Assembly (NCBI GenBank): GCA_028344155.1
Contig: JAOMAI010000003.1
Span: 1-64,000 of the forward strand
DNA: 64,000 bases
Direction of reading: 5' to 3'
DNA from: Candidatus Nitrosopelagicus sp.
GTDB taxonomy: Archaea; Thermoproteota; Nitrososphaeria; Nitrososphaerales; Nitrosopumilaceae
A program made the position numbers and the translations under genes. Below the pieces are notes generated by a model, which worked only from the letters and a program-made list of their open reading frames with translations, had not been told where the DNA came from and made no database searches. Shown here one piece after another: positions 1 through 42,121 of this stretch. How positions within the stretch are numbered: the first letter of the stretch is position 1; every line of letters starts with the position of its first letter.

Positions 1-93
1 TTTGTGAAGACATCTTATAAAAAAAATTTCTAAACTACTAAAGTTAAATCTATTTCAGCTATCTTGATTAACCGTTTGTAAATAATACTGACT

Positions 94-41586: not shown

Positions 41587-41985
41587 CTAGTTTGATTCTT
41601 CTTGTTTCTTTTTAACATACTTTTCAACCCATTCAAGAGTTATGACTCCACCTTCTGCCAAATTGACTAATGAGTTTGATGATGCTTCACCTGTTACCTT
41701 ACCTGTATTTTTTCTAGTTTGTCTCCATTTTAGACTGGTGTTTCCACTCTTTGATGAATAAATTACTCCTAAGACATCTTTAGCATTAACAAATGTTATC
41801 TCTCTGATTTTTTTCAATGTTACTTTGTCTGCTGCTTCTACATAGATGGAACCTAAACTATCATCTCTTTCAGCAAAAACTTCTGGATCCTCAAGATAAC
41901 TTCTTGGTGCAAATGAACTACATGTACTAGCTATGATGAATCTTCGAAAACTTTCTAATGATGAAGGTGCATCTATCTCGACCAT
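41587..41985 (-). CDS. hypothetical protein
   Basis: 132-aa ORF, no recognised family. Confidence 0.65.
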   Translation of the reverse strand: MVEIDAPSSLESFRRFIIASTCSSFAPRSYLEDPEVFAERDDSLGSIYVEAADKVTLKKIREITFVNAKDVLGVIYSSKSGNTSLKWRQTRKNTGKVTGEASSNSLVNLAEGGVITLEWVEKYVKKKQEESN

Positions 41986-42057
41986 TTTTTTTCAATAAAT
42001 GTATCTCACTTATCAAGCTTATTGAAAGATTCAAGTATGATTATCTGAAATTTCTAC

Positions 42058-42121
42058 TGCAGACTGTGATGTACGCTATCCTATGACTTTGATGATTAGG
42101 ATCTTGAGTTCTGAGTCTGCA
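42058..42121 (+). ncRNA. candidate C/D box guide sRNA
   Basis: Terminal stem TGCAGAC/GTCTGCA (7 bp) enclosing C box GTGATGT (6/7), C' box TTGATGA (6/7), D' candidate ATGA (3/4), D box CTGA (4/4) next to the closing stem; 64 nt, intergenic. Confidence 0.5.

Follow-up and report, generated by a model that had tools for sequence, protein, structure and literature searches.

The locus and the parts of the element

The window, that is, the whole analysed stretch of 64,000 nucleotides, corresponds to contig C23 of an archaeal assembly that totals 863 kb and is 65% complete. Genes near the locus include those for an archaeal SRP RNA, a tRNA-Gln and a protein with an eRF1 domain. The gene content suggests a member of the Thermoproteota of Nitrosopumilaceae type. 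Here a 64-nt element with box C/D architecture sits 37 nt upstream of the yjbQ start, next to a divergent ORF of 132 aa (41587-41985, reverse strand) that has no Pfam match and stays the neighbour of the element in relatives, including those that no longer have yjbQ. In one relative, the yjbQ homologue at this place (G035:C9:224898-225279) is broken by stops and the sRNA is intact. The element comprises the following parts:

42058-42121, forward strand: whole box C/D sRNA gene, 64 nt (sequence, conservation in relatives, order-wide model matches)
42058-42064, forward strand: 5' arm of the terminal stem, TGCAGAC (covaries with 42115-42121)
42066-42072, forward strand: C box GTGATGT, in relatives TGATGA (sequence, alignment)
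42073-42082, forward strand: D' guide region ACGCTATCCT (rRNA scans gave no consistent target)
42083-42086, forward strand: D' box ATGA, in relatives TTGA or CTGA (alignment, order-level loci)
42089-42095, forward strand: C' box TTGATGA in the register of the sequence-only reading (sequence, alignment)
42093-42098, forward strand: alternative C' register TGATTA, in many relatives TGATGA, with a 12-nt spacer to D (suggested by spacing)
42099-42110, forward strand: D guide GGATCTTGAGTT, antisense to tRNA-Leu(CAA) ACTCAAG/ATCC (target search, guide-tRNA pairing)
42106, forward strand: guide G, fifth nucleotide upstream of the D box, opposite wobble C34, the predicted 2'-O-methyl site (pairing and N+5 rule)
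42111-42114, forward strand: D box CTGA (sequence, alignment)
42115-42121, forward strand: 3' arm of the terminal stem, GTCTGCA (covariation)

Read directly from the sequence, the stem and the C, C' and D boxes are present in the order that the sequence-only reading had claimed, with a D' box, read as ATGA, between C and C'. The length also fits the class (about 50-70 nt): relatives measure 62-65 nt, except in G034, where an AT repeat expansion between C and D' extends the sRNA (L029) to 93 nt. The deviations from consensus reported for three boxes were found in the window, where C, C' and D' are all affected, but proved to be local, with relatives carrying canonical TGATGA and CTGA. The window's C box departs from RUGAUGA at one position (its last base is T) and the D box is exact. 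Because three boxes deviate, the window's boxes taken as a single sequence are weak evidence, and the weight comes from the relatives. Apart from the window's closest group, most relatives have TGATGATGA before the guide, which forms a canonical C' box with a 12-nt spacer to D; in the closest group the same register reads TGATTA. This register suggests that the functional C' box of the window may sit 3 nt further downstream, possibly at 42093-42098 rather than 42089-42095. An internal helix between the two guides (ATCCTA/TAGGAT) gave an MFE z-score of -2.2, yet neither G031 nor G034 retains its pairing, and it was therefore not counted as part of the structure.

Conservation in the family and across the order

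Nucleotide search and alignment revealed that the element is kept as a block in 30 family relatives, and the search detected it in most family genomes. Conservation is bounded by the stem at both ends and exceeds that of the flanks, save for one upstream stretch. Directly upstream of the sRNA, TTATCAAGCTTNTTGAAAGATTCANTTAG (42010-42038 in the window, with equivalents in L001-L030) shows conservation across genera and may be a promoter for the sRNA or for the divergent gene.

Among 24 distinct sequences, the seven-pair stem was paired in 97.6% of cells, versus 14-48% when the partner was slid, and one of its pairs changes from GC to AU in nine of them without a break. The D' box TGA is invariant across the 24 aligned sequences, and the D box CTGA is exact in 23 (CCGA in L030); in some genomes at the level of the order it is degenerate, such as AAGA in G043. 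C' reads TGATGA or close to it in nearly all 24, and the C box is TGATGA in most other genera. Most conserved of all is the D guide GGATCTTGAGTT, which is almost invariant. Examined for conservation, the earlier assignment held: boxes and stem are kept across relatives, and the stem covaries.

A covariance model yielded matches in 188 of the 250 genomes of the order, covering 54 of 60 genera. Since weak matches could represent other C/D sRNAs, we read 20 loci individually and found GATCTTGAGT kept in 18; the other two are L214, cut by the contig end, and L216, a different C/D-like RNA. The latter (G271:C15:35548-35613) is a second model match and, with the guide GGATTATGAGTA, appears to be a C/D sRNA of another kind. 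At the level of the phylum, the pattern TGATGA-1..8-GATCTTGAGT, which joins C' box and guide, occurred in 76 of 398 genomes (backward control: 0). Nearly all pattern loci read outside the order resemble C/D sRNAs, the exception being L236 (G446), and several phylum genomes with the pattern carry an intronless GACTCAAGATCC tRNA gene. Judged from their sequences, the loci outside the order could be either orthologs or convergent guides.

The guides and their candidate targets

For the D guide, GGATCTTGAGTT, the predicted target is AACTCAAGATCC. A search with ACTCAAGATC returned, besides the sRNA itself, genes for tRNA-Leu(CAA) in five of eight genomes of the family, and the guide is antisense to the anticodon loop of this tRNA (5'-ACTCAAGATCC-3'). 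The intron-bearing tRNA-Leu genes were missed by ARAGORN and were read by hand from sequence. In the cloverleaf, the loop reads C32 U33 C34 A35 A36 G37 up to the intron, which is inserted after 37; beyond it, the sequence continues with A38 and the TCCTT of the 3' anticodon stem. As the window's own assembly is only 65% complete and no tRNA-Leu(CAA) was found in it, the target was taken from sister genomes. One of these, G017, has an sRNA identical to the window's and does carry the tRNA, with which, once spliced, the guide forms 12 Watson-Crick pairs.

In box C/D RNAs, the methylated target nucleotide lies opposite the fifth guide nucleotide upstream of the D box (N+5 rule). The guide base at this fifth position is paired to C34 in 27 of 27 genomes scored, and the duplex between guide and spliced tRNA-Leu(CAA) spans 10-14 bp. 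By a simple count, 7.5 kb of rRNA and tRNA would be expected to contain about 0.002 perfect 11-nt matches. Both rRNAs of G000, G025, G033, G036 and G031 lacked a site for the D guide of comparable length and conservation. The D guide, previously left without a target, thus matches tRNA-Leu(CAA) with C34 at N+5. A fibrillarin gene is present in the same genome as the element (G000; PF01269, E 2.9e-85). In G036, the fibrillarin match (G036:C1:935816-936470) comes in two pieces with a TAG, which suggests a frameshift or an assembly error.

Most of these tRNA-Leu(CAA) genes contain the 37/38 intron. Assuming splicing at this canonical site, contiguous pairing was better with the spliced tRNA in 22 of the 27 genomes, equal in four and better with the precursor in one, a count that does not amount to 27 independent events because the genomes are related. 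The C/D RNA might instead act on the tRNA precursor that still contains the intron, either as a chaperone of its splicing or folding or through methylation before splicing. Many introns begin with ATC, so that 10 pairs form with the precursor too; G033 is the genome in which the precursor fits better; and tRNA-Trp in Haloferax is modified as a precursor (PMC7994747). However, the intron of G034 begins with CTC and leaves a broken duplex of 7 pairs with the precursor versus 10 with the spliced tRNA, the guide also fits the spliced form better in G036 and in six genomes whose introns start with ATTTT, and in some genomes this gene lacks an intron altogether, as in G050, where the match is contiguous. 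We consider action on the precursor rather unlikely. Yang et al. 2016 (cited in PMC6313347) state in their title that C/D guide RNAs read no more than 10 nt of the substrate, so many precursors would still bind well enough; for this reason, judging by the pairing, we treat a preference of the guide for spliced tRNA-Leu(CAA) as no more than likely.

On the D' side, the core AGCCCT precedes the D' box in most order-level genomes read (L197-L213), and the window's family has ATCCCT or ATCCT. LSU and SSU scans gave no consistent rRNA site for the D' guide, with tRNAs scanned in part, and scanning both rRNAs across the whole alignment showed none that rose together in all genomes. Two candidate targets were rejected. 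Pairing with LSU near 967-974 reaches 8 bp in G000 and G025 and is not maintained in G033 and G031, and complementarity to the variable arm of tRNA-Leu(CAA) partly tracks clades by eye and fails in G033, G036 and order-level genomes. Among the tRNA-targeting sRNAs of Pyrobaculum, one guide serves a tRNA and the other is without a target (PMC7994747), so that an orphan D' guide is ordinary. A fuller scheme, in which the D guide would read the exon-exon junction, wobble methylation would follow intron removal and D' (AGCCCT) would serve a conserved target other than ordinary rRNA, strikes us as quite unlikely.

A predicted Cm34 guide among known systems

The sequence-only reading had placed the element upstream of yjbQ. 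The position is correct in the window, but the association is incidental, because the sRNA is also present in genomes in which no yjbQ was found, such as G026 (94% complete) and G034 (95%). It is very improbable, then, that the element is a k-turn in the leader of yjbQ or in its upstream region, serving as a cis-regulatory structure of the L7Ae type instead of a trans-acting guide: its 37-nt distance from yjbQ and its k-turn-like C/D motifs would suit such a role, but the sRNA outlasts yjbQ while the divergent neighbour is kept, and its best-conserved part is a guide that matches a tRNA. That degenerate boxes and a short inverted repeat fell together by chance, as the off-consensus C, C' and D' boxes of the window might suggest, has a negligible probability and is already refuted by the conservation of the element as a covarying block across genera with a matching tRNA target.

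We conclude, with a probability of about 0.93, that the element is an archaeal box C/D sRNA whose D guide is predicted to place Cm34 on tRNA-Leu(CAA). It has the features of the class, namely C and D boxes by a terminal stem, internal C' and D' boxes, the length, a guide and a genomic fibrillarin, and the identity first proposed from the window is borne out by a conserved unit, a covarying stem and a tRNA-matching guide. The C/D and C'/D' motifs would serve as binding sites for L7Ae, Nop5 and fibrillarin; pairing of the D guide with the anticodon loop would position fibrillarin on C34, where it would make Cm34; and this modification would restrict or strengthen UUG decoding. We infer transcription, RNP assembly, the methylation itself and the preference for spliced tRNA.

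No Rfam 15 family reached its gathering score over the element. RF00095 (snoPyro_CD, 11.8 bits versus a gathering score of 45) and RF00134 (snoZ196, 25.4 versus 55) share the C/D architecture, and with such weak matches the element is a member of neither. In the open literature searched, a coverage that excludes most subscription papers, we found no description of C/D sRNAs in this lineage. The prediction provides the lineage with an exact, testable site, Cm34 of tRNA-Leu(CAA), and adds an order-wide guide RNA that stands outside every Rfam 15 family at gathering score. With a variable tRNA intron and a nearly fixed guide, one can also ask whether the wobble base receives its guided methylation after splicing.

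With good support, the element adds to a well-known RNA class, and a C34 guide for tRNA-Leu(CAA) was predicted before. Such guides had been proposed in Pyrococcus, in 2001 work as summarised in PMC7994747, and Cm34 of P. furiosus tRNA-Leu(CAA) is among the predicted sites in PMC7668247, most of which were undetected in the tRNAs analysed there. RNA class, tRNA and target nucleotide (C34) are common to the Pyrococcus guide and the present sRNA. The former, likened here by its description in the review with no implication of orthology, belongs to another archaeal lineage, whereas most target tRNA genes of the present sRNA have a 37/38 intron. The C/D RNA in the tRNA-Trp intron (sR50; Haloferax, Pyrococcus) likewise guides Cm34 in an anticodon loop; it forms, however, the intron of the very tRNA that it targets and guides Um39 as well, whereas the present sRNA is a separate intergenic gene. 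In bacteria, TrmL acts on tRNA-Leu. It makes Cm34 (and cmnm5Um34; PMC6313347), the product predicted here, but does so as a stand-alone protein enzyme without a guide RNA.
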